A stretch of 59,850 nucleotides of DNA from an uncultured Lachnospiraceae bacterium (GTDB lineage Bacteria; Bacillota; Clostridia; Lachnospirales; Lachnospiraceae): assembly GCA_946541955.1 (NCBI GenBank), contig CAMNJZ010000003.1, positions 1 through 59,850 on the forward strand, in the 5' to 3' direction. The position numbers and the translations under genes were made by a program. Numbering within the stretch: the first letter of the stretch is position 1; every line of letters starts with the position of its first letter. The notes below the pieces were generated by a model. The model saw only the letters and a list, made by a program, of their open reading frames with translations. It was not told the origin of the DNA and did not search any database. Shown one piece after another: positions 45,541 through 59,648 of the stretch.

Positions 45541-46761
45541 TTAATCCCTGCGCCTGTCCCGCTTCCGGCAGTAGGTCCCGACGGCTTCCTCCCTGGCCAG
45601 GTCCCGGAGGATCAGCATCATGACGGCCTCCAGGAGCTTCCCGGTTCCGGTCTTCCGGCCTGTCATCCTCACTATGCTTTCTTCGATTTCAAAAAGGTCC
45701 ATGGGCCTGTCGTCGGAAAGGGCCAGATAGACCGTCTTTTCCAGGTCCGAGAGGCCCTCCGGGGCTCCCGGACCCCTTTTTTCCTCCTCCTCCCGGACGC
45801 CGTAGAAATACTCGATCAGGTCCCTGGGGGAAAGGGCCATGGCGGCCCCCTGGGCCAGGAGAGCGTTGCAGCCCTCCGAGAGTCTGTCCGTGATCCGGCC
45901 AGGCAGGGCGAAGACGTCCTTTCCCTGGCTCAGGGCATAGTCCGTGGTGATCAGGGTGCCGCTCCCCCCTTTGGCCTCAACGACCAGGACCAGGTCGGAA
46001 AGCCCGCTGATGATCCGGTTCCTTGGGGGGAACTGGGAAGGACGGGCCTTTGTCCCCGGCCTGTATTCGGAAACGATGCAGCCCCGGCCCTGGAGCATAG
46101 CATAGAGGTCCTCATTCTCCTGGGGATAGCAAACGTCCACGCCGCAGCCCAGGACGGCCAGAGAATAGCCGCCCGCCTGCAGGGCCGCCCGGCCCGCAAT
46201 CCCGTCTACGCCCCGGGCCATCCCGCTGACGACCCCGATGCCGGCGCCCGCCAGAGCAGAGGCAAAGCGCCTGGCCTCCTCTCTTCCATAGGCGTCCGGG
46301 ATTCTGGCTCCGATCACGGCAGCGCAGGGCAGGGCCGGATCCGGAAGCCTTCCCACATAGTAGAGGCCCAGGGGCATGTCCTGGATCCTGCGGAGCCTTG
46401 GCGGATAGGCCGGATCCTCCAGGGAAACATAGGAAATTCCCTTTTTCTGCAAAGCCTCCAGGGCCTTTTCCGGATCCCTCTGCCTGGCCTGCAGGAGAAG
46501 GCGCATGTATTTCTCACCTCCCTTCTCCCCAAAAGCCTCCCGGGTCAGACCGGCCAGGTCCCTTCCCCCCATCTGATAGAGGGCGCAGGCAAAGCCGCTC
46601 CCTTCCAGGCCGGCCGCCAGGTCATAAGGGGACGCCTTCTCCTTCCTTCCCTCCCTGTTTTTCTGGTAACTGTCAAAGAGTCTTAATACTGCTGCGGTCC
46701 CGATTCCCTGGATCTCCCTGAGCCAGAGGCCATAGGCCGAATGCCTGTCCTGGTTCTCCAT
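45541..46761 (-). CDS. dprA: DNA-processing protein DprA (Smf)
   Basis: This protein binds incoming single-stranded DNA and loads RecA during natural transformation. The 406 aa show a SAM-like N-terminal part, the Rossmann core with 'VIGARIPDAYGREEA' and 'GIGVVSGMARGVDG', 'LGCGVDVCYPQEN', 'FPPRNRIISGLSD', and a C-terminal winged helix. ATG with GAAAGGA upstream, 48 bp after the comM-like gene. Pairing with a ComM-like ATPase fits a competence or recombination function; no topA follows. Confidence 0.95.
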   Translation of the reverse strand: MENQDRHSAYGLWLREIQGIGTAAVLRLFDSYQKNREGRKEKASPYDLAAGLEGSGFACALYQMGGRDLAGLTREAFGEKGGEKYMRLLLQARQRDPEKALEALQKKGISYVSLEDPAYPPRLRRIQDMPLGLYYVGRLPDPALPCAAVIGARIPDAYGREEARRFASALAGAGIGVVSGMARGVDGIAGRAALQAGGYSLAVLGCGVDVCYPQENEDLYAMLQGRGCIVSEYRPGTKARPSQFPPRNRIISGLSDLVLVVEAKGGSGTLITTDYALSQGKDVFALPGRITDRLSEGCNALLAQGAAMALSPRDLIEYFYGVREEEEKRGPGAPEGLSDLEKTVYLALSDDRPMDLFEIEESIVRMTGRKTGTGKLLEAVMMLILRDLAREEAVGTYCRKRDRRRD

Positions 46762-46809
46762 ACTTTTCCTTTCTGTTTAAAACGCCTTTTCCCCTCATGC
46801 CGGGCACTC

Positions 46810-48366
46810 TCAGTGCCCAAAGATCTGTCTTTCTCCGACCCGGAAGGCAGCCGCCTCCATCAGGTGGCCGGCCCCGATCTCCCGGCTTCCTGCCAGGTCC
46901 GCAATGGTCCTGGCGGTCTTCAGAAGTCTGTGAAAGGTCCTGGCGCTGAAATGATATTTCTCATAGAGGGACTCCATGATCTTCTCTTCCTCTGGTCCCA
47001 GCCGGCACAGGTCTTCCACCATGGTTCCGGTCATGTCTGCATTAAAGCGGATCCCGGTCCCCCGGAACCGGTCCCTTTGTCTTTCTCTGGCTGCCTCCAC
47101 TCTTTCCCGGATCCTGGCGCTGGATTCTCCCTTTTCCGGTCTGAGCAGGTCTGCGGCCCCAACGGAAGCGACCTGGGTGCAGAGATCGATCCTGTCCAGG
47201 ATCGGCCCCGAAATCCTTCCCAGATATTTTCGGATCTGGCTCTCGCTGCAGCGGCACCGATTCCTGTCTGGGTAGTATCCACAGGGACAGGGGTTCATGG
47301 CCGCCAGCAGCAGAAAGCGGCAGGGAAAGGTACAGGAGCCCGCCTGCCGGACCAGGGTGATCTCCCTGTCCTCCAGAGGCTGGCGCAGAAGGTCCAGCTT
47401 CTCTCTTCCAAATTCCGGCAGCTCATCCAGAAAAAGAACGCTCCTGTGAGCCAGAGAGATCACCCCGGGCTGGGGCGTGACGCCCCCGCCCGTCAGGGCA
47501 ATGGGCGTAATGGAATGATGGGGGGCCAGAACGGGACGGATCCGGATCAGGGGATCCTCCTTTGGCAGCCTGCCGGCTATGCTGTAGATCGATGACACCT
47601 CCAGACTTTCCTCCAGGGTAAAGGGCGGCAGGATCCCCGGCATGCATTTGGCCAGCATGCTCTTGCCTGTGCCGGGCGGGCCGATCATCAGGGCGTTGTG
47701 AAAGCCGGCCGCTGCGATCTCCAGCATCCTTCTGGCAGCGGTCTGCCCGATCACGTCCTCAAAGTCAGGCAGGTCCCTGCCGGGCCCCTCCGCCTGGGAA
47801 AATCGTTCTGCAAGGTCTGTGTGTCCTGGCGGGTAAAGCCTGTCCCGGTCTTCCTCCCCGGCTTTGAGGTAAGCAATCAGGTCCTTCAGGCTGGGAAGGC
47901 CCACCACTCTGATCCCCTGGGCGGCTTCTCCCTCCTGCAGGTTGCCGGCGGGAATGAGGCAGGTATGCAGGCCCTTTTCTCTGGCCCGGAGGACCATGGG
48001 AAGAATGCCCCGGACGGGCCGGATCTCTCCGTTGAGGCCCAGCTCTCCGGCGATCAGAATCCCCTCCACAGACTTCTGGTCCAGAAGTCCCATGGAAATC
48101 AGGATCCCTGCCGCCACCGGCAGATCCAGGATGACGCCTCGTTTGGGCAGGTCGGCCGGCGCAAAATTCACGGTGATTCTGGAGGGCGGAATCTGAATCC
48201 CCGTATTTTTCAGGGCGACCCGGACCCTCTTTTCGGCTTCCCGGACCTCTCCGGAGACAAAGCCCACCATGGAAAAGATGGGAAGGCCGGAGGAGATATC
48301 CGTTTCCACACGCAAAAGACAGCTGTCGACACCAATGACGGCAGCGGAAATGACAGAACTGTACAT
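46810..48366 (-). CDS. comM: Mg-chelatase-like AAA+ ATPase (YifB/ComM family)
   Basis: This is a 518-aa hexameric helicase-like ATPase; ComM promotes branch migration during natural transformation in Gram-negative species. Layout: an N-terminal Lon-S5-like domain ('VETDISSGLPIFSMVG'), the AAA+ core with Walker A 'GPPGTGKSMLAK' and Walker B 'VLFLDELPEF', the zinc-like Cys cluster ('MNPCPCGYY'), and the C-terminal Mg-chelatase domain. ATG 48366 (MYSSV) is used because AAGGAGAGG lies upstream; the 40 codons before it run into the preceding terminator. dprA is immediately downstream. The name follows family resemblance. Confidence 0.9.
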   Translation of the reverse strand: MYSSVISAAVIGVDSCLLRVETDISSGLPIFSMVGFVSGEVREAEKRVRVALKNTGIQIPPSRITVNFAPADLPKRGVILDLPVAAGILISMGLLDQKSVEGILIAGELGLNGEIRPVRGILPMVLRAREKGLHTCLIPAGNLQEGEAAQGIRVVGLPSLKDLIAYLKAGEEDRDRLYPPGHTDLAERFSQAEGPGRDLPDFEDVIGQTAARRMLEIAAAGFHNALMIGPPGTGKSMLAKCMPGILPPFTLEESLEVSSIYSIAGRLPKEDPLIRIRPVLAPHHSITPIALTGGGVTPQPGVISLAHRSVLFLDELPEFGREKLDLLRQPLEDREITLVRQAGSCTFPCRFLLLAAMNPCPCGYYPDRNRCRCSESQIRKYLGRISGPILDRIDLCTQVASVGAADLLRPEKGESSARIRERVEAARERQRDRFRGTGIRFNADMTGTMVEDLCRLGPEEEKIMESLYEKYHFSARTFHRLLKTARTIADLAGSREIGAGHLMEAAAFRVGERQIFGH

Positions 48367-48456
48367 TGTAGTTCCTCTCCTTGAAAGTAGAAGCAAAGCC
48401 GGGAAGAAATGGAAGCGGACGCTTCCGGAAAAGAAAATTTGAAAGAAAAGAAAAAA

Positions 48457-48478
48457 GACAGGATCAGGAGACCCTGTC
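48457..48478 (-). terminator. Terminator of hemW
   Basis: A six-bp stem (GACAGG / CCTGTC) on the minus strand is followed by six T residues, about 80 bases past the hemW stop. The rest of the gap up to the comM-like gene holds only a small GGAAGCG/CGCTTCC hairpin (48411-48426). Confidence 0.65.
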
Positions 48479-48558
48479 TGTATCATACCATACCTGCATC
48501 ACTCCGGGCGGCGAAATTTTCCGGCCAGTCCGGATCTTTCCAGGCCCTGCCGGAGCCT

Positions 48559-49760: not shown

Positions 49761-51578
49761 TTAATTGCCGGAATCCAGCTTGAGGACGTTCATGAAGGCT
49801 TCCTTTGGAATCTCCACGTTGCCAACCACCTGCATCCGGCGCTTGCCTTCCTTCTGCTTCTCCAGCAGCTTCTTCTTTCTGGAAATATCGCCGCCATAGC
49901 ACTTGGCCAGGACGTCCTTGCGGAGCTGGCGGATGGTCTCTCTGGCAATGATCCTGCCGCCTACGGCTGCCTGGATCGGTACGTCAAAGAGCTGTCTGGG
50001 GATCTCATCCTTGAGTCTTTCGCACATACGGCGGCCCCGTTCATAGGCTCCGTCTGCATGCACGATAAAGGAAAGGGCGTCCACAGGCTCCTTGTTGACC
50101 AGGATATCCATACGGACCAGTCTGGAGGTCTCATAGCCCTTGAGCTCGTAGTCGAAGGAGGCGTAGCCTCTGGACCTGGACTTGAGGGCGTCGAAGAAGT
50201 CATAAATGATCTCGTTCAGGGGCAGGTCATAATGCAGGACCGCCCGGGTCTGTTCGATGTATTCGGTACTGATATATACGCCCCTGCGCTCCTGGCAGAG
50301 CTGCATGATGGGGCCGATGAATTCTGTCGTGACCATGATCTCGGCGGAAACGATGGGCTCCTCCATGTGCTCGATCAGGGTCACATCCGGCAGGTTGGAG
50401 GGATTGGTCAGCTCGATCATGGTCCCGTCTGTCTTATAGACCTTATAAACAACGCCGGGGGATGTGGAGATCAGATCCAGATCGTATTCCCGTTCCAGAC
50501 GCTGTAGGATGACCTCCATATGGAGGAGGCCCAGGAAACCGCAGCGGAAGCCGAAGCCCAGAGCCAGAGAGGTCTCGGGCTCGAAAAAGAGGGAGGCGTC
50601 GTTGAGCTGGAGCTTTTCCAGGGCATCCCGCAGGTCGGGATATCTGGCGCTGTCCGCCGGATAGAGTCCGCAGTAGACCATGGGCTGGGCCTTCTTGTAG
50701 CCGGGCAGGGCCTCGGCACAGGGCCGCTCCAGCTCGGTAACGGTATCGCCGACTCTGGTATCCTTGATGTTCTTAATGGAAGCCGTAAAGTAACCGACCA
50801 TGCCGGCGTAGAGCTCCTCGCAGGGAATGAACTGGCCGGGGCCGAAGTAACCGACCTCCACCACCTCTGCCACCGCGCCGGTGGCCATCATGCGGACCTT
50901 GGAGCCCCTGCGGATCACGCCGTCCCGGAGTCTGATGAATACGATGACTCCCTTATAGCTGTCATAGAGAGAGTCAAAGATCAGGGCCTTGAGGGGCGCG
51001 TCGGGGTCGCCCTGGGGAGCCGGGATCTTTTCCACCACGGCTTCCAGGACATCCTCGATCCCGATTCCCTGCTTGGCGGAAATCAGGGGGGCATCCTCGG
51101 CCTCGATGCCGATCACATCCTCGATCTCGGTCTTGACGGCATCCGGCATGGCGGAGGGCAGGTCGATCTTATTGATGACCGGGAAGACATCCAGATCCTG
51201 CTCCAGGGCAAGATAGACATTGGCCAGGGTCTGGGCCTGGATGCCCTGGGTGGCGTCCACCACCAGGATGGCGCCGTCGCAGGCAGCCAGGGACCGGTTG
51301 ACCTCATAGTTGAAATCCACATGGCCGGGGGTATCGATCAGGTTGAAGGTATATTCCCTGCCGTCCTTTGCCTGGTAGATCAGACGGACCGCCTGGGATT
51401 TAATGGTGATGCCTCTTTCCCTTTCCAGGTCCATGTTGTCCAGGACCTGGTCCTGCATTTCCCTGCTGGTCAGAAGACCTGTCTTTTCGATCATCCGGTC
51501 TGCCAGGGTGGATTTACCATGGTCGATATGGGCTACGATACAGAAATTGCGAATGCATTCCCTGCTTCTATCTGTCAT
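49761..51578 (-). CDS. lepA: Elongation factor 4 (LepA)
   Basis: This ribosome-associated translational GTPase acts in ribosome biogenesis or back-translocation. The 605 aa have G1 '[13 protein letters not shown]', G3 'DTPGHVDF' and G4 'NKIDLPSA', then domains II and III and the LepA-specific C-terminal domain with '[18 protein letters not shown]'. ATG with GCGGAG seven bases upstream. It begins 17 bp after the stop of the solute-binding lipoprotein, so it is very likely the sixth gene of that operon and shares its promoter. Confidence 0.97.
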
Positions 51579-51595: not shown

Positions 51596-54025
51596 TTAGT
51601 TATTTTCATTGATGAAGATGGAGATCCTGCTCTGGATGATATCGGCCACCTCTCTGGAGGATTTGATTCCGTTCCAGTAGGATTCCGCTTCTTCCGCAAT
51701 GATATCCATGACTTCGTAATTGTCGTAGGAGGTATGGTCTACCGCCTTTATGATGTCCACCAGCTTCTGGGCCTCTTCCGGCTTCAGGGGCGTCATTTCA
51801 ATGTCCACGCCGCCCAGGGAAGCGATGGGGTTGTCGGGCTGCTCCAGACCGTACTCATCCACATAATACTTCTGCTTGGTGGATTCCTCGGCCATGTTCT
51901 CCAGGGCCTGTACAGAAACAGGGAAGGAGGAAGCGAACTCGCTCTTATAAATGCTCTCCTGATAGGCATCTGTCAGGAAGCTGCGGATGAACTGCCATGC
52001 GCCGTCCTTTTCGGCGGAGGTGCTGGACATGCAGATCCGAAGGTCGGGGCTGACGCAGGCTGTGGCCTTGTCATCGGACGGGAAGCCCGTTACGGAAACG
52101 TCTGCGCCGAAGGTGGCCTGCAGGGCTTCCTGATAGGATTCAAAGTTGACAAGATAGCTCATGGCCATCAGAGCCCTGTCATCCCGGTAGTAGGTCTCAT
52201 AGGCGTCAAAGTTCTCTTCGGTCTCTTCCGAGTAATCCAGCGGGAACTTGTTGGTGAACTCCAGCAGCTTGATGAATTCATCCGAATTAAAGCTGCACCT
52301 GCCGGTGGCAAGGTCGATGAACTTGCTGCCGTTAAGCTTCAGGGCATAGTACAGAATGGTGCTCTTGGGCTCATAGGTGAAGATATCCTTGTATTCGATG
52401 CCCTTGGAATCTGCCAGACGAAGCAGGTCGTCGGTGCTGATGCCGTCGCCGATCAGCTCGGTCTTGCCCAGCATGGACTCCAGGGTAAAGGAAGGGGTCA
52501 GGACATAGAGACCGCCCCAGGGATTCACTGCATTAAAGACATTGGTCAGATATTCCTTGCCGGCCAGCTCGCTGTCCTTTTCCAGATAGGGCTGCAGGTC
52601 TTCAAAGATGCCCTTGCCCACATAGTTCTCGGGATGCATGTCGCCGGAAAGGATCACGATATCCGGAACGTTGCCGGAGATGATATCCGTATTGAACTGG
52701 CTGCCGCCCTGGGAAACCGAGCTGATATCATCGCTGTATACGTCATACTTGGAATAGTCTGTGGCAATGATCTTGTACTCTTCGTTGGTCTTGTTGAAGT
52801 CGATGATCTGCTTGCGGGTATTGGCGTCCATGTAGTAGCAGCTCAGCTTCAGCTCTTTTCTTTCCTTGATGGTGGACGCGTCCACAGGGGTCAGGACATG
52901 GAGCTTCTGGGCGCCGGTGCTGGATTCCATGACCATGATGACGATGGTGCCGTCCTCACCCTCCACCAGGGAGCTGACATAGTTGACGTCCATTTCCGTG
53001 CCGATGTAGTTGACGATCTCGACCATGTCGTCATCGCCGAAATTGTAGGTATAGATGCCGTTGGCGTCGGTCAGGATCAGATCGCTGTTGAGGCCGGCAT
53101 AGATGTTGTAGTTGTAGTCAATGCGGACATTGGGGCTGACCTCGGGCTCCGTCATTTCGCCGGATTCCTCCTCCAGGAGGCTGTACTGGTAGCCTTCTCC
53201 GTTGTTGTAAAGGATCAGAATGTCTCCGTTCTTCATGACCAGCATCTGGCACTGGGACATGTCGCTGATGCCCTCCAGCTTGCCGGTGGCGTCGCCGTTT
53301 TTGGGGTCAAAGCGGAGGATTCCGTTGGAGGTGCTCACGAAAAGGCCCTGCTTTTCGGAGCTGATCAGACCGTAGACAGCGGGATAGGCGTATTCTTCTC
53401 CGCTGTTTTCAAACTTGATCTCCTGCTCCCAGAGGGTCTGGCCGGACTGGTCCATTTTGATCAGGGAGAAGTCCTCTTCCGCACTGAAGAAGTCCTCAAA
53501 ATCCTCTTCGGATTCAAAGTCGACCTCGCCTTCCTCCTCTTCTTCGGCAGCTTCGGGCTCTTCCATGGCTTCTTCGGACATGGTCTGCTTGATGAAGTAG
53601 ATATTGCCCTCCTCATCCATGGCATAGTTGCTGTAGAAGGTGGTATAGCCGTCATACTCCAGATCCAGCTTCGTGATCTTCATATCGGATCCGTCATAGT
53701 TGAAGCTGCAGAGGAAATCCACCTGGCTGTCTGTGTTGGGCTCATAGAAGAAGCCGTATCCGTAGATCTTGTCCTTGGTCGACTTCATGTAGCAGATCTC
53801 ATAAATGGTGTTGTTCTGGGAGAGCTCGCCCAGGTCCACCTCGCTGTCGGTATAGACGACCTCACCCTCGGCAACTGCATTGCTGATTTCAGATGAGCTG
53901 CCGGAGGAAGCATTTCCCCCCTCCTGGGTGGTGGCAGAGCCGTTTGAACCGCCGCCGCAGCCGGCCACAGACAGTGCCATGATTCCTGCCAGAAGCAGGC
54001 TTACTGTTTTTGTATACTTTCTCAT
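51596..54025 (-). CDS. Extracellular solute-binding lipoprotein with propeller-like N-terminal half
   Basis: This 809-aa lipoprotein is about twice the usual binding-protein length. The signal peptide ends in the lipobox VAGC. Residues of roughly 50-395 form short repeated strand units ('[13 protein letters not shown]', '[14 protein letters not shown]', '[13 protein letters not shown]') that look like a beta-propeller, interrupted by an extreme acidic run of Glu/Asp near residues 160-195. From about 395 onward it resembles a type 1 carbohydrate-binding protein ('[21 protein letters not shown]', 'PDIVILSGD', '[11 protein letters not shown]'). The start is ATG 54025: AAAGG lies upstream inside the preceding gene. 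No ATPase is encoded nearby. The ligand is unknown; a peptidoglycan or polysaccharide fragment is possible. Confidence 0.85.
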
Positions 54026-54026
54026 C

Positions 54027-55406
54027 TCATTCACCTTTCTCTATATCTGGCTTTTCGTCAGTGTCTACGCCTTCTTCAGAAGAAGGACCGTCTGAAACTG
54101 TTTCATTTGTACGCAGATCTTCCATATCCTCCAGATCGTCGAAGAAATCGAAATCATCCTCCTCTGCTTCTTTGTCCTCTGCAGCGGAGATTCTGCCGGA
54201 GGGATCCTCCTGGGCGGCAGCGATCTGGACCCGGGCGGACTGCCTGTCATAGAGCCAGTCGGCCGCCTTCCTGGTAAGGGAAGCGGTATTCCATTTCCTG
54301 TGTCTGTACCAGCTGATGATCAGGATGACGCCGATCACGGCTGCAATAAAGAGACACAGGCAGTAGCCCATAAAGACCAGGGAAAGAATGTTTTCCCAGG
54401 CTCTGGCCCTGTTCTCCCAGAAAGGATAGGAAATGCCGGTCATCTGCATGCCCCGGGAGGTAAAGCCCATAAAGATATCAAAAAGGGCGCCGTTCTCGAA
54501 TCTGGCAGTATTGTCCACAATACTGACGCTGGCAGATCCCCCTGTCGCTTCCTTCATGATCCCGGCCGCAAAGCCCTCCACAGGATTGGGCAGGACGGTC
54601 TCCAGACAGGTGATCATGGGGCCGCTCTCCTGGGTGCCCTCGTCTGCGGAGCTTGTATCTCCGGTCATGCTCAGCTGGCCGTAGTCCTCCTCCACTGCAC
54701 TGGTCTCGGAATAGGCTGCCGTCACAAAGCTGCCGGCATAATACTTGCGCAGGGAATCGTAGGACACATAGGCCAGGGATCTTGAGGAGCCCGCTGCCCT
54801 GGTCAGCCGGTCGTCTTCCCTTTTGTAAACGCCTGCCACATAGTGGGGCACATTGTCGATGTCCACGGATTTGCCGACACAGTCGGGAGATCCGAACAGG
54901 GACCAGGCCGTCTCTTCATCGATCAGGATCCTGTCCCGCATCAGTTCGTCTTCGGAATAGTAGCTTCCGCTCAGGAGCTTTACGGGATGGAACAGGAAAA
55001 AGTCACCGCCGGTGCCGACGGCATTGACCGTAAAGGTATGGCCGTTCCCGGTCATCTCCACCTGTCCCAGGCCGCTGTAGCCCAGGGCAAAGAGTCTGGC
55101 GTTTTCCTCCAGACCAAGGGTCTCATGGCTGATCGCTCTGTTTTCCAGAATTTCCGAAAGCCGGTAGCGCAGCTCCGGGATGTCCTCCTCGGAGAGTCCC
55201 TGCCAGCTGCCGTAAAAGCAGCTGATCTGGGCAGCGCCGCTGCCCCGGCTCCAGCGCCCGCCTTCCCCCTGGTCATAGAGGGAATCGACCAGATGGCGCT
55301 TGATGGCCCCGATGGTGGCCGCCATCAGGAGGAAAAGCAGGGCCAGTCCGATCAGGATCAGCCTCCGCAGGGAGATCTTCCCGCGGACTCGTGCTTTATC
55401 AGACAT
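54027..55406 (-). CDS. MacB-core-like membrane protein without FtsX domain
   Basis: This 459-aa protein has a basic N-terminus, one membrane helix ('LILIGLALLFLLMAATIGAI', about residues 16-36), a large extracytoplasmic domain and a second helix near 365-390 ('FMGYCLCLFIAAVIGVILII'). The extracytoplasmic domain resembles the MacB periplasmic core ('LFHPVKLLSGSYYSEDEL', 'ILIDEETAWSLFGSPDCVGKSV'). The cytoplasmic tail is very acidic ('EEDDFDFFDDLEDMEDL'). The usual three-helix FtsX transporter block is missing, so it cannot be a complete MacB-type permease. The start at ATG 55406 (MSDKAR) has GGAGG six bases upstream and overlaps the adaptor gene's end by eight bases. The role is unknown; it may be a scaffold or mechanotransmitter. 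Confidence 0.75.
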   Translation of the reverse strand: MSDKARVRGKISLRRLILIGLALLFLLMAATIGAIKRHLVDSLYDQGEGGRWSRGSGAAQISCFYGSWQGLSEEDIPELRYRLSEILENRAISHETLGLEENARLFALGYSGLGQVEMTGNGHTFTVNAVGTGGDFFLFHPVKLLSGSYYSEDELMRDRILIDEETAWSLFGSPDCVGKSVDIDNVPHYVAGVYKREDDRLTRAAGSSRSLAYVSYDSLRKYYAGSFVTAAYSETSAVEEDYGQLSMTGDTSSADEGTQESGPMITCLETVLPNPVEGFAAGIMKEATGGSASVSIVDNTARFENGALFDIFMGFTSRGMQMTGISYPFWENRARAWENILSLVFMGYCLCLFIAAVIGVILIISWYRHRKWNTASLTRKAADWLYDRQSARVQIAAAQEDPSGRISAAEDKEAEEDDFDFFDDLEDMEDLRTNETVSDGPSSEEGVDTDEKPDIEKGE

Positions 55407-56772
55407 CTGCATCCTCCGCAAGTCTAACCTGCTCGCCGGCTGAGACCGGTTTCGTCGCATTGGTGATCACATATTCATAGCCCAGCAGGATCGCCGAAAT
55501 GGCGGATACGCTTTCATCGGAAGCCAGGACGTCCACGTTGACCCTGGACGCCACATAGCGGTTGCCCAGCGGGGACTGCTTGCTTTCCACGATCAGGATA
55601 AATTTGCCCTGGTTGTCCTCATGAATGGCGGAATTGGGCACGATGTAATCATAGTAAACGGAATTCTGGGGAACCGTCAGGCCGATGTTGTCGCCCACCT
55701 CCACTTCGGGACAGACAACGGAGAAGACCAGGATCCGGTTGTCCTTGTTCTCAGGATCCCGGTTGATGGCTTCGAGTCTGGCCGAGAAGTTCTCATAATA
55801 CCAGGCGTTCTGGGCCTCTGCGGCCGTGCCGGTCTTCAGATTGGCGGCCTGCTCCTTGGTGACGGAGAATTGGACAGCCAGGGCGGAGCCCTCGGGCTGG
55901 ATCACGGCTGCTTCCGTATCCTGGGAGGTCTCGTCGCCCGCGCTGTAGTTGAGGGAGACGATCTTGCCGGAGATGGGGGCTGTCACCTTGGTCCGGGTGT
56001 CCTTTTTCTCCAGAGATTCCACCTGGGCCCTTGCTTCCTCGATCTGGTCGTACTTGGCCCGCAGATCGATCTCGGCGCTGATGCTCGCGATGAGCTTTTC
56101 ACGCTCCGCCGTGATGGTCTCCACGGCGTTCTCCCAGGTAGACAGGGTCGCTTCCGCAGCGGCCTTTTCCTTCTGGGCCTTCTTGCCGGTACCGGTGATG
56201 GAATTGACCTTGTTCTTGGCAGAGGCCACGTTGGCTTCTGCGTTGGCCAGACGTCCGTTCACATCCGAAAGCTGGGACTGCATGGCGTCGGTGCTGCGCC
56301 AGTTGCCCTGGCGGATCCGGTAAATATCCGCGTCGGAAAGAGCGCCCGAGAACATATCCTTTTCGTACTCTGTTTCCAGGGTGGTCAGGTTCTTTTTGGC
56401 CTCCTCCAGCTCTGTGGAGGAAGTCTTGCGCAGACGGTAGATCATATCGCCCTTCTGCACGGTATCGCCCACCTTGACCGCCACGGACCGGACGGTCCGG
56501 GTCCCGCTGATGGTCACCTTATAGGGATTGGTGATCTCGGCCTGGCCGGTCCCTCTGACCTTGGGGGTGATCTCACCGGAGGTCACATACTGGACCGAGA
56601 CCTGGGAAAGAGAATGATTCATGATCGTATTGGAGAAGAAGGTCAGGACCAGCATGATCACCAAAAAGATGATGATCGCCGTTTTGATCCGGTCCTTTCT
56701 GGTCGCCTTCTTTTTGTCAGAAGACTCTTCCACTTCCGTCACATACCCATTGTTATCTTCTATCTGATACAT
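55399..56772 (-). CDS. HlyD/RND-type membrane-fusion adaptor
   Basis: This is a 457-aa periplasmic-adaptor-like protein. A cytoplasmic start is followed by one membrane helix ('TAIIIFLVIMLVLTFFSNTI', about 31-50). The first lipoyl half ('VAVKVGDTVQKGDMIYRL') precedes a long alpha hairpin (about 115-260: 'LEEAKKNLTTLETEYEK', 'ADAQVESLEKK'-like heptads). The second lipoyl half is 'TKVTAPISGKIVSLNYSAGDE', then beta-barrel and membrane-proximal parts. In Gram-negative bacteria such proteins bridge to outer-membrane channels; in Gram-positives they pair with MacB-like exporters. Here the next gene is MacB-core-like, overlapping by eight bases, but the upstream genes are sugar-type import permeases. 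Confidence 0.85.
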   Translation of the reverse strand: MYQIEDNNGYVTEVEESSDKKKATRKDRIKTAIIIFLVIMLVLTFFSNTIMNHSLSQVSVQYVTSGEITPKVRGTGQAEITNPYKVTISGTRTVRSVAVKVGDTVQKGDMIYRLRKTSSTELEEAKKNLTTLETEYEKDMFSGALSDADIYRIRQGNWRSTDAMQSQLSDVNGRLANAEANVASAKNKVNSITGTGKKAQKEKAAAEATLSTWENAVETITAEREKLIASISAEIDLRAKYDQIEEARAQVESLEKKDTRTKVTAPISGKIVSLNYSAGDETSQDTEAAVIQPEGSALAVQFSVTKEQAANLKTGTAAEAQNAWYYENFSARLEAINRDPENKDNRILVFSVVCPEVEVGDNIGLTVPQNSVYYDYIVPNSAIHEDNQGKFILIVESKQSPLGNRYVASRVNVDVLASDESVSAISAILLGYEYVITNATKPVSAGEQVRLAEDADV

Positions 56773-56816
56773 AGTCGGAAAGCTCCTTTTGTTATTGATA
56801 TCCCTGTATGTTCTGA

Positions 56817-57851
56817 CTACTCTTTAATGCCGCCCTGGTAGGTAATGCCCTCGATCAGGTACTCCTCTCCGTAAAGGAAGATCAGAAGGGGCAGGATCAT
56901 ATAGATGACCGCCACCGCAAAGGCCAGGGAGATTTCTCCCTGATTGATCTCCGAAAGGAATACGGAAAGGGGATGCATTTCCTTGTCCGAAAGCAGGATC
57001 AGCGGCTGCTCCACCATGTTCCAGTAATCAATGAAGATCAGGATGGCGATGGAGGCCAGGCCGCTCCGGCAAAGAGGCATGCAGATCCTGGAAAAGATCT
57101 GCCATTCGTCGGCGCCGTCGATCTCGGCCGCCTCATAGATGGACCGGGGAATCCTCCGCATATATTTGGTCAGCATATAGACCGCAAAGGGAGAAAAGAT
57201 GCCCGGCAGCCAGATGGCCCACCTGGTATTGAGAATATGCAGCCAGGAGGAAACCAGGTAATTGGGTACCAGGGTGACCTGGTAGGGCATCAGCATGAGA
57301 ATGATGTAGGCAAAGAAGATCCCTGCCTTCAGTTTCCCGTAGTATCTGGCAAATCCGTATGCGGCCAGCGAAGCGACCGCCAGCTGAAAGACGACGATCG
57401 GAACCACATAGAATACCGAGTTCCAGAATTTGAGCAGATAGGCCGGAGACCGGAAAAGGACCGTCACATACTGGTTGAAGGTTACCATGTCCGGCAGGAA
57501 TTTCAGATTGACCTTTTCTGCTATGAATACCTTGCCGCCGTTGTCTGTCGAAGCAAAGACCTGACCGTAGTTGGCGTTGATCTCCGACGGCGACATAAAG
57601 GAATTTGTAAAGGTAAGGAGGATGGGCATCAGAAAGAGAAAAGCAAAGGCGGACGCAATGACCACTGTCACAATGATCCTGGTCCATTCCTTTCTCTTTT
57701 TCTTCTGACGGAGGGCCAGGGCTTCCGGATCCATGGGTTTTTTTACGATCCGGACCCTCTGCTGCGTTCTCTGGGCCGGCGGGCCGGCCTTCCTTTGCGG
57801 CTTCTGTTCCCTTCCGCCTGTATCCTCCCTGTCATCCCAAAGACTTCTCAT
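56817..57851 (-). CDS. MalG-type ABC transporter permease
   Basis: This 344-aa inner-membrane permease has a basic, Gln/Arg-rich N-terminal extension of about 50 residues and six helices. It carries an almost canonical EAA coupling loop ('EAAEIDGADEWQIFSRICMP'), the site that docks the ATPase in sugar uptake systems. The extracytoplasmic loop between helices 1 and 2 is long. Start ATG with GAGGAG upstream, 21 bp after the MalF-like gene. No nucleotide-binding subunit is encoded in the window, so a shared MsmX-like ATPase from elsewhere would be needed. Confidence 0.85.
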   Translation of the reverse strand: MRSLWDDREDTGGREQKPQRKAGPPAQRTQQRVRIVKKPMDPEALALRQKKKRKEWTRIIVTVVIASAFAFLFLMPILLTFTNSFMSPSEINANYGQVFASTDNGGKVFIAEKVNLKFLPDMVTFNQYVTVLFRSPAYLLKFWNSVFYVVPIVVFQLAVASLAAYGFARYYGKLKAGIFFAYIILMLMPYQVTLVPNYLVSSWLHILNTRWAIWLPGIFSPFAVYMLTKYMRRIPRSIYEAAEIDGADEWQIFSRICMPLCRSGLASIAILIFIDYWNMVEQPLILLSDKEMHPLSVFLSEINQGEISLAFAVAVIYMILPLLIFLYGEEYLIEGITYQGGIKE

Positions 57852-57872
57852 ACACGTCTCCTCTGCCGGGGC

Positions 57873-58934
57873 TTAATACTCCAGATCCCGGCTGATGCGG
57901 TTTTCAGCCTTAAACATCACGGCGATGATGACGATCATGATGAGGGACATCAGGATCGCAGCGGCTGAGAGCTTCTGATAATCCAGCGAGTTAAAGGTAT
58001 TGTTCATGAAGTGCTGGAGCATGTAGAGAGAGTCATAGGGGTAATTGCCCGTCATCAGGTAGATCTCTCTGAATACCTTGAAGGAATTGATGACGGACAT
58101 GATCGTCACAAATACGATGGTCGATGACAGATAGCGCAGCTTGATCAGCAGGAAGATCTGCAGGGAGGATGCGCTCTCCAGTCTGGCCACCTCCAGGATA
58201 TCCCTGGGGATGGAGGCCAGTCCGGCCATGAACAATATCATATTATAACCGAGATTCTTCCATTGGAACAGCGTGGCGATGACGATGGGGGCATATTCGG
58301 ATTTCATCCAGTCCACTGGACCGGCGCCGAAAATCCCGATCAGATCATTGGCAAGGCCGTGATAATGGAAGAGGACCTCCCAGATCAGGATGACCGAAGC
58401 GACAGGGACCATCATGGGCGTCAGAAAGGCGGTCCGGAAAGCGCTTCTAAAGGGGATCTTAGTGTCCATCATGACCGCCAGCCCCAGAGACAGAAGCACG
58501 GCCAGCGGCACCGAAATAGCGGTAAACTTCAGGGTGTTTCCGGCGGCCAGGAGAAAGGCCGCGTTGCCGGCTGCCCGGATATAGTTGGCAAAGCCCACGA
58601 ACCTGTGCTGGACCGGATTGTTGACAAAAGAGTAAAAGATAACGACCAGGAAGGGAAGAAAGAAAAACAGGCATACCCCCGCCAGAGAAGGCAGGATAAA
58701 GAGCCAGGACAGTCTGCTGTGCCGGCTGGTATGATAACCGTTGTCCAGTCCTTCCTCCAGAAAAGCACGGATGCGCGAAAGTGCAAGGAGGGCGGCTTCC
58801 CTGGCAGACTTGCCCTTCAGATCTTCTCTGAGTCTGCGGGCCTTCCTTCCAAGGGTCCCCTTCAGATTCGGGCGCCTTATGCTTTTGTCCGGTTTTGTGT
58901 GCTTGCGCAGGAAGCGATTGATTCTGTCCTTCAT
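57873..58934 (-). CDS. MalF-type ABC transporter permease (degenerate EAA loop)
   Basis: This 353-aa permease has a basic, Arg/Lys-rich cytoplasmic N-terminus of about 85 residues and six helices beginning 'LSWLFILPSLAGVCLFFFLP'. The part that should be the EAA loop reads 'LEVARLESASSLQIFLLIKL': the invariant Gly is Ser and the final Leu-Pro is lost, so ATPase contact may be weakened. The start is ATG 58934 (MKDRINRF), with GGAAGG upstream; the 45-codon upstream extension has no support. It opens the five-gene operon. Confidence 0.8.
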   Translation of the reverse strand: MKDRINRFLRKHTKPDKSIRRPNLKGTLGRKARRLREDLKGKSAREAALLALSRIRAFLEEGLDNGYHTSRHSRLSWLFILPSLAGVCLFFFLPFLVVIFYSFVNNPVQHRFVGFANYIRAAGNAAFLLAAGNTLKFTAISVPLAVLLSLGLAVMMDTKIPFRSAFRTAFLTPMMVPVASVILIWEVLFHYHGLANDLIGIFGAGPVDWMKSEYAPIVIATLFQWKNLGYNMILFMAGLASIPRDILEVARLESASSLQIFLLIKLRYLSSTIVFVTIMSVINSFKVFREIYLMTGNYPYDSLYMLQHFMNNTFNSLDYQKLSAAAILMSLIMIVIIAVMFKAENRISRDLEY

Positions 58935-59041: not shown

Positions 59042-59087
59042 AATTCCTAAGCGTTTGGAAGCCGGACACTCTTGCTGCATTCTCATT

Positions 59088-59096
59088 ATTATATCA
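59088..59096 (-). promoter_or_regulatory. Promoter of the permease/adaptor/solute-binding operon
   Basis: TGA-TATAAT on the minus strand is an extended -10 with perfect hexamer. A TTGACA lies just upstream but only eight bases away, so the extended -10 probably carries the promoter. The leader to the ATG is about 145 bases. Confidence 0.55.
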
Positions 59097-59118
59097 TACT
59101 CTGTCAACATAAAAAAAA

Positions 59119-59216: not shown

Positions 59217-59648
59217 TCAGAATTCCTCTTTCACCGTCTTAAGGGTAATATAGGTCCTGGTGCTGCTGACCCCGTGGATGCTCTTGATCCTTTTGTGGAT
59301 CCGCTCCAGGTCGTCAGAGTCCTGGGCATAGATCTTCAGAATGAAGTCGAAATCTCCTGTCATATAGTAGCAGGATACGATCTCCGGCATGGACTGGACG
59401 AGCCCGGTAAAGCTGTCGTAATACTTGGGATGCTCCAGGGAGATTTCCATGACGGCCAGCATGCCCATCCCCAGCATCTTTTTATTGGTCACCACCGTAT
59501 AGCCTTTGATCACGCCCTGCTGTTCCATCTTGTGGATCCGCTCCAGGACGGCCGATACGGAAAGATTGATCTGTCTGCTGATGACAGACGCCTTTTCTCT
59601 GCTGTTCCTTTTCAGGTATTCCAGAATCTCGTAATCCAGTTTATCCAT
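59217..59648 (-). CDS. Lrp/AsnC-family transcriptional regulator
   Basis: This is a 143-aa regulator with an N-terminal winged helix ('SREKASVISRQINLSVSAVLERIHKMEQQGVI') and a C-terminal RAM ligand-binding domain ('MLAVMEISLEH', 'VSCYYMTGDFDFILKI'). Such proteins form octamers that sense amino acids. ATG with AAAGGA nine bases upstream. The nearest downstream gene on the same strand is the MalF-like permease behind a terminator, so the Lrp protein may regulate other loci. The ligand is unknown. Confidence 0.93.
   Translation of the reverse strand: MDKLDYEILEYLKRNSREKASVISRQINLSVSAVLERIHKMEQQGVIKGYTVVTNKKMLGMGMLAVMEISLEHPKYYDSFTGLVQSMPEIVSCYYMTGDFDFILKIYAQDSDDLERIHKRIKSIHGVSSTRTYITLKTVKEEF

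Follow-up and report, generated by a model that had tools for sequence, protein, structure and literature searches.

We showed that gut and rumen clostridia share a conserved gene set in which the membrane part of a sugar importer is combined with scaffold parts of the exporter type. The set was analysed in a stretch of 59,850 nucleotides (nt) from an uncultured Lachnospiraceae bacterium (assembly GCA_946541955.1, contig CAMNJZ010000003.1, positions 1 to 59,850), hereafter the window. Five genes lie there in tandem on the minus strand from 58934 to 51596 and, according to the open reading frames (ORFs) and Pfam matches, encode a MalF, a MalG, an HlyD/MacA-type adaptor, a MacB periplasmic-core protein and a binding lipoprotein of the solute-binding protein (SBP) type. 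This confirmed the gene content assigned by a sequence-only reading, made earlier from the letters and ORFs of the window. The conserved set suggests an undescribed machine for moving something across the envelope. That the five genes form one envelope machine, a MalK-powered importer bearing the adaptor and an ATPase-less MacB scaffold, is given a probability of about 0.48. The five genes are as follows (aa, amino acids; TM, transmembrane helix).

57873..58934, minus strand: malF-like permease, 353 aa; BPD_transp_1, 47.6 bits (cut-off 26.4)
56817..57851, minus strand: malG-like permease, 344 aa; BPD_transp_1, 46.7 bits (cut-off 26.4)
55399..56772, minus strand: HlyD/MacA-type adaptor, 457 aa, single N-terminal TM; HlyD_3, 40.3 bits (cut-off 22.2)
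54027..55406, minus strand: ATPase-less MacB core, 459 aa from the ATG at 55406; MacB_PCD, 44.3 bits (cut-off 27)
51596..54025, minus strand: binding lipoprotein, 809 aa from the ATG at 54025; SBP_bac_8, 27.1 bits (cut-off 27)

An 8-nt overlap joins the adaptor gene to the core gene (adaptor stop 55401-55399, core ATG 55406), and a 1-nt gap separates the core gene from the lipoprotein gene (core stop 54029-54027, lipoprotein ATG 54025), so both spacings of the earlier reading held. The longest ORFs start at 55460 for the core and 54034 for the lipoprotein, as alternatives to the two ATG codons.

Conservation of the gene set and adaptor trees

A core match was obtained in 23 of 37 genomes of the same genus, the window's own included, and in 1 of 24 others, where it was weak. 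The adaptor, core and SBP genes stood together in all 22 same-genus loci (L026-L047), MalF and MalG were visible in 20 of them, the other two ending at contig ends, and lepA came after the SBP gene in 19; L029 has its SBP gene ahead of MalF. A genome scan with one genome per species yielded at least 448 core relatives, and the best 80 by similarity, on which all 80-locus counts below rest, were kept. These were mostly from Lachnospiraceae (Butyrivibrio, Kineothrix, Lachnotalea, Acetatifactor and others). MalF, MalG, adaptor and core occurred in that order in 77 of the 80 loci, with the SBP gene after them in 29, before them in 4, on both sides in 43 and not detected in 1. All five families were present in 76 loci; L094, L099 and L149 end at contig ends, and L144 has its core in frame with an SBP. 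The median successive gaps between the five genes were -4, 26, 10.5 and -4 nt (71-78 pairs). Since the same genes are grouped across many genomes, the arrangement is far beyond chance, and a chance grouping was rejected. The contig of L138, labelled Candidatus Gastranaerophilales, bears a Lachnospiraceae-type operon, by mis-binning or transfer.

The adaptor profile was matched at 1e-20 by 34 of 200 genomes at the family level. Among 30 of these loci (own included) the core adjoined the adaptor in 29, L176 ending first, and MalF or MalG was found in 28, L174 and L180 being incomplete at the locus ends. At the class level 145 of 391 genomes matched at 1e-12, and 30 loci, partly repeats, contained MalF or MalG in 28 (not L230, L232) and the core in 28 (not L232, L234). 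Twenty tier-two and check loci (L236-L255) comprised 12 with a same-strand MalF or MalG and 8 ordinary MacAB-like or RND-like loci. The latter, with adaptor matches of 72-112 bits, were set aside as MacAB-like (L246, L251, L252, L253; ATPase confirmed in L252) or RND-like (L240, L242, L250, L254). The phylum level gave 27 matching genomes out of 398 at 1e-20, with MalG in 7 of the 27 loci, the window's own among them, and none in 20.

A MalG profile was built from the MalGs of this system, with no adaptor in the profile, and matched 114 of 246 genomes of the order at 1e-30. The adaptor adjoined MalG in 29 of 30 loci fetched in this way (best per genome, own included), while L315 stopped at a contig end. 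Twenty wider MalG-fetched contexts had the adaptor in 18 and a detected core in 10 of those 18; besides L334-L336 and L347, the contexts without a core end too early to judge or show none. L348, with a lower MalG score, was an ordinary CUT1 set without adaptor. Weak matches to the core, obtained in further families of the order, could be taken for ordinary MacB, but this reading was wrong for G063, G137, G161, G257 and G273, where a MalG of this type is 1.6-1.9 kb away. Adaptor and core were thus regularly found with the permeases in relatives, which was the co-occurrence that the sequence-only reading had proposed to look for, and no normal MacB ATPase directly followed the adaptor and core in the operons inspected. 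The window MalG was 67-74% identical to MalG of 17 relatives, and mean identity over 65 loci was 0.73 for MalG, 0.66 for MalF, 0.46 for the adaptor, 0.42 for the core and 0.35 for the SBP.

For the first adaptor tree, 93 of the 137 adaptors collected were used; the MalFG-adjacent label of L237 and of the window copy was assigned by hand, and from seven contig-edge adaptors six were excluded and L234 was included as MalFG-adjacent. One branch split 68 MalFG-adjacent rows from 25 others with an approximate likelihood ratio support (SH-aLRT) of 100, and the trait needed 1 change versus 22.3 in shuffles. The second tree (76 rows) gave 55 versus 21 with an SH-aLRT of 99.9 and 1 change versus 18.7 in shuffles, 18 of the 55 MalFG-side adaptors having been fetched through MalG. 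Both trees were quick searches, with long branches and unrooted, and their separation is partly expected because the outside adaptors were weaker matches of the same searches. Ordinary MacAB-like and RND-like loci sit on the other side of the tree, including adaptors that adjoin RND-like frames of 1027-1044 aa and 11-12 helices.

Components and probable energy source of the system

The window carries the features of a CUT1-type importer: two MalF/MalG-type BPD_transp_1 permeases, an EAA coupling loop and a MalE-type binding protein. The coupling loop reads EVARLESAS in MalF and EAAEIDGAD in MalG. A strict EAA-type motif was present in 75 of 78 MalG and 52 of 77 MalF sequences of the window's branch, and in 31 of 37 and 26 of 36, respectively, outside it. 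MalF scored 73 bits against the UgpA model, far under the cut-off of 335; its Pfam scan was made on a translation with one extra codon.

Two MalK-type (OB_MalK) matches were found in the window's genome, both outside the operon, the first on contig 121, preceding a BPD_transp_1 permease, and the second incomplete at the start of contig 57. In four relatives (L196, L239, L265 and L339) a MalK-type ATPase (ABC_tran with OB_MalK; 28.2 bits for OB_MalK in L339 versus a cut-off of 27) lies inside the operon, directly 3' of the core or MalG, and L236 has an ABC_tran fragment at the contig end. Shared ATPases of CUT1 importers are established, as passages of one article describe for MsmK in C. bescii and S. 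pneumoniae and MsmX in B. subtilis (PMC8579813). Because the EAA motif is kept, MalK-type matches occur elsewhere in the genome and four relatives have MalK in the operon, a shared MalK-type ATPase, as the predicted partner of the permeases, largely accounts for the lack of an ATPase among the five genes. The earlier statement that no ATPase is present therefore stood for the five genes and fell for the genome. No MacB/LolD-type ATPase was present among the window ORFs beside the adaptor and core. A hidden MacB ATPase in the operon was rejected after a motif scan of the 80 loci gave no ORF with an LSGG motif from MalF to the last SBP; the motif is loose, and the scan, of the motif only, missed upstream ABC ATPases of Butyrivibrio loci that Pfam detected. 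L158 has ABC_tran and BPD_transp_1 frames about 0.2 kb before the first SBP.

The core protein consists of a TM, a periplasmic core domain (PCD) and a second TM, which is the architecture of a cut-down MacB. The structure model contained two TM helices, and the fold search matched the core to MacB and YknZ. No FtsX (PF02687) match was obtained in the window core up to E 1, in agreement with the earlier reading, and both MacB_PCD and FtsX were present in the control MacB of L251. FtsX was absent from all 12 core proteins scanned (the window's and 11 relatives) at the thresholds used; among them L198 and L199 were under the MacB_PCD cut-off and L196 had no MacB_PCD match. Helices were counted by plain hydropathy scan. 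In the window's branch (78 relatives) there were two in 72, three in 4 and one in 2. The divergent branch L191-L205 (15 loci) has fuller cores, with three to five helices in 13: four in 7, five in 3, three in 3, two in 1 and one in 1. Class-level cores had four to six helices in L237-L239, L241, L243-L245, L247-L249, L258, L262, L263, L265 and L267, three in L261, and one or two in L256, L257, L259 and L260. The window core is a truncated relative of a fuller MacB-like protein. Since 22 core positions are invariant over 64 sequences, the core is under selection. In L027 (7913-9410) the core gene is broken into two frames. In L144 (8052-11333) core and SBP form a single frame of 1093 aa with the SBP lipobox retained, a possible natural fusion, hinted at by one metagenome-assembled genome.

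The adaptor has its TM helix at residues 33-51. It scored 72 bits against RND_mfp, under the cut-off of 94.9, and the adaptor profile A4 matched the RND adaptor 6vej (3.3e-14) and MacA 5nik (9.8e-14). No RND transporter ORF was found beside the adaptor in the window. Conservation peaked in the segment directly outside the membrane (0.87) and was among the lowest at the hairpin tip (0.43), a pattern that would fit near-membrane contacts and a distal end with no fixed partner. In L334-L336 the adaptor measures 680-697 aa.

The lipoprotein consists of an N-terminal propeller-like half and a C-terminal sugar-type solute-binding half. The solute-binding half matched importer-type families in both the fold search and the profiles. 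For the propeller proposed earlier, sequence matches were weak but repeated and the N-terminal half was all-beta in the model (mean pLDDT, the predicted local distance difference score, 85.3), which supports it in part; the fold-search match left that half uncovered. Forty-four of the 80 loci (L081-L160) carry two or three SBP genes above 100 bits.

Neighbouring genes and signals

The features next to the operon are as follows.

49761..51578, minus strand: lepA (EF4); LepA_C, 171 bits
49725..49750, minus strand: terminator-like hairpin 3' of lepA, 11 pairs then T6
59079..59107, minus strand: promoter-like site upstream of malF, 10/12 consensus matches

The SBP gene is followed 17 nt later by lepA, after which comes the terminator-like site that has the largest number of pairs of those on the minus strand (49750-49725). 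Because of this spacing and this site, lepA is probably in the same transcription unit as the five genes. The class of promoter-like sites to which 59107-59079 belongs was not enriched in the region (5 found versus 5.9 expected in shuffles). Upstream of the operon and on the same strand lies an AsnC/Lrp-type regulator gene (59217-59648), a homologue of which is also upstream in L026. In L030, L036, L038, L041 and L044 the operon lies between a phosphoglycerate-mutase-like ORF, judged by eye, and lepA. Further along the window, ORFs at 45541-48486 presumably encode DprA and a ComM-type Mg-chelatase protein, with a HemN-like ORF upstream of these.

Proposed machine, alternatives and significance

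In the proposed machine, a CUT1-type MalF-MalG importer would be driven by a MalK/MsmX-type ATPase encoded elsewhere. Its outer face would bear a permanent scaffold, in which the MacA/YknX-type adaptor is seated on the MacB-derived core; the core would have retained the first helix, the periplasmic domain and the second helix and lost the ATPase-coupling half. Together, the adaptor and the core would make up a collar or short conduit above the permease mouth, between membrane and wall, and the propeller-bearing binding lipoproteins would deliver the solute. This reading draws directly on the gene content, the predicted folds of core and SBP, the gene order over many families, the single adaptor branch, the EAA motif, the MalK in the operons of some relatives and the lack of an FtsX match. 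We infer further that the proteins make contact, that transport runs inward with an oligosaccharide or glycan as the solute, and that the core plays a passive part. More tentatively, and with some doubt, the set may represent a new type of ATP-binding cassette (ABC) importer, in which a MalK-driven MalFG takes solute through a collar or tube of adaptor and stripped MacB, loaded by the lipoprotein, as a trans-wall uptake machine of monoderm bacteria.

Several observations weigh against the one-machine reading. The adaptor occurs without a detected core beside it in L334, L335, L336 and L347, and likewise L264 has MalFG and the adaptor with no core detected. Because the core is undetected beside the adaptor in such outlying loci, the adaptor and MalFG are the firmer pair and the core is usual, not universal. 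Co-variation of the pairwise distances of the five proteins (r 0.67-0.85, 65 loci) speaks for one machine, yet could be expected from shared species history alone too. In 12 of the 80 loci (L090, L091, L096, L097, L103, L104, L108, L116, L120, L124, L130 and L151) a frame of 721-741 aa ends -74 to 55 nt from malF. This frame has a DUF6449 match in L090, and the frame before it was an ABC ATPase in all three loci scanned (L090, L104, L151). Given this large frame directly before malF and the ABC ATPase before the frame, some members of the family may co-transcribe the set with a different kind of ABC pair. A DUF6449 protein also precedes the SBP gene in L029, of the window's genus. The flank scan covered 50 of 74 upstream and 70 of 135 downstream proteins, and the 25 commonest families per side were considered; ABC_tran was found in 10 and DUF6449 in 5 of the 50 upstream proteins. 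No sugar-use theme appeared among these families except glucuronate isomerase UxaC (4 of 70 downstream). As UxaC was the sole usual sugar-use enzyme among them, the set does not look like a plain sugar-use locus, and inferring the substrate from the flanks was dropped. Finally, an OmpR-type regulator is near 11 of the 15 loci of the divergent branch L191-L205, so that a stress or sensing role also fits. The hybrid system of the sequence-only reading was upheld in the conserved grouping of adaptor, core and permeases, and corrected by the shared MalK, the truncation of the core, the outlying loci in which no core is detected and the extra upstream protein.

The flanks, which are mostly not sugar-use genes, and the 12 loci with a large protein just before malF, preceded where scanned by an ABC ATPase, would also suit an exporter. 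In that case a MalK-driven MalFG, or some other engine, would drive a glycan or peptide outwards, adaptor and core would lead this cargo off the membrane as in MacAB/YknXYZ, and the lipoproteins would hold or pass it. HlyD-type adaptors are known from exporters, and part of one review gives the proposal that adaptors of Gram-positive MacAB-like pumps form a channel within the space beneath the wall (PMC5985334). However, MalF, MalG and the SBP half all match importer families, the EAA loops are retained, and the ATPase directly after the core or MalG in four relatives is of the MalK type, so export is considered unlikely. The OmpR-family response regulators of the divergent branch point to a sensing or defence module, in which the binding protein and scaffold would detect an envelope-active compound or glycan and signal via a two-component system, transport being secondary; MacB-family proteins such as BceB act in sensing, as described in the same part of that review (PMC5985334). 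Such a module is improbable too, for the 25 commonest flank families of the window's branch include no response regulator on either side, and the window operon is flanked by an AsnC-type regulator gene and lepA.

It is very unlikely that two unrelated systems, an ordinary CUT1 importer and a leftover MacAB fragment, share one operon. Each part does have ordinary relatives, and the window's genome carries elsewhere a MalK-MalF pair and, on contig 1, a MacB match that has an ABC_tran match some 2.5 kb off; yet the association takes a single change on the adaptor tree and is kept across many families, and the invariant positions indicate a core under selection. Least probable is that a stand-alone ATPase from elsewhere powers the core and adaptor for mechanical work on the envelope (e.g. 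on wall enzymes), with MalFG acting separately: MacB-family proteins spend ATP on work outside the membrane, according to a section of PMC5985334, and the genome has 63 ABC_tran matches, some being pieces of one protein, but the window core has no FtsX match and two TM helices in the model, and by helix count 72 of 78 branch relatives have two.

Compared with known systems, the one-machine reading shares with CUT1 importers that use a shared ATPase (MsmX/MsmK) the MalF/MalG pair, the SBP lipoprotein and the lack of an own ATPase, while the window SBP has an extra propeller-like half. To our knowledge, no CUT1 system with an adaptor or a MacB core is known. With MacAB, YknXYZ and S. pneumoniae SpMacAB the set has in common a MacA-type adaptor adjoining a MacB-type periplasmic domain, but it has no MacB-type ATPase or FtsX match, two helices instead of four, and an importer permease pair alongside. 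Unlike LolCDE and other type VII ABC proteins, the set has no LolD-type ATPase among its five genes. Mce importers also combine permeases, a proteinaceous tunnel and a shared ATPase coded elsewhere; they belong to different protein families and are an analogy only, and no Pfam match to the MCE domain or YrbE permease was found in the five proteins. The parts are each known, and their combination was not found described in a limited check of the open-access full-text literature. In PMC8579813 and PMC12096829 the term MACB denotes a strain.

Two reviews ask, in the parts consulted, what role HlyD/MacA-kind adaptors have in bacteria that lack an outer membrane (PMC4446572, PMC5985334). These adaptors are understood via exporters, and an importer-tied adaptor, if true, would be a second use and a concrete test case. 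It would also mean that MacB parts are reused without their engine, and may represent an added uptake route for gut and rumen bacteria.

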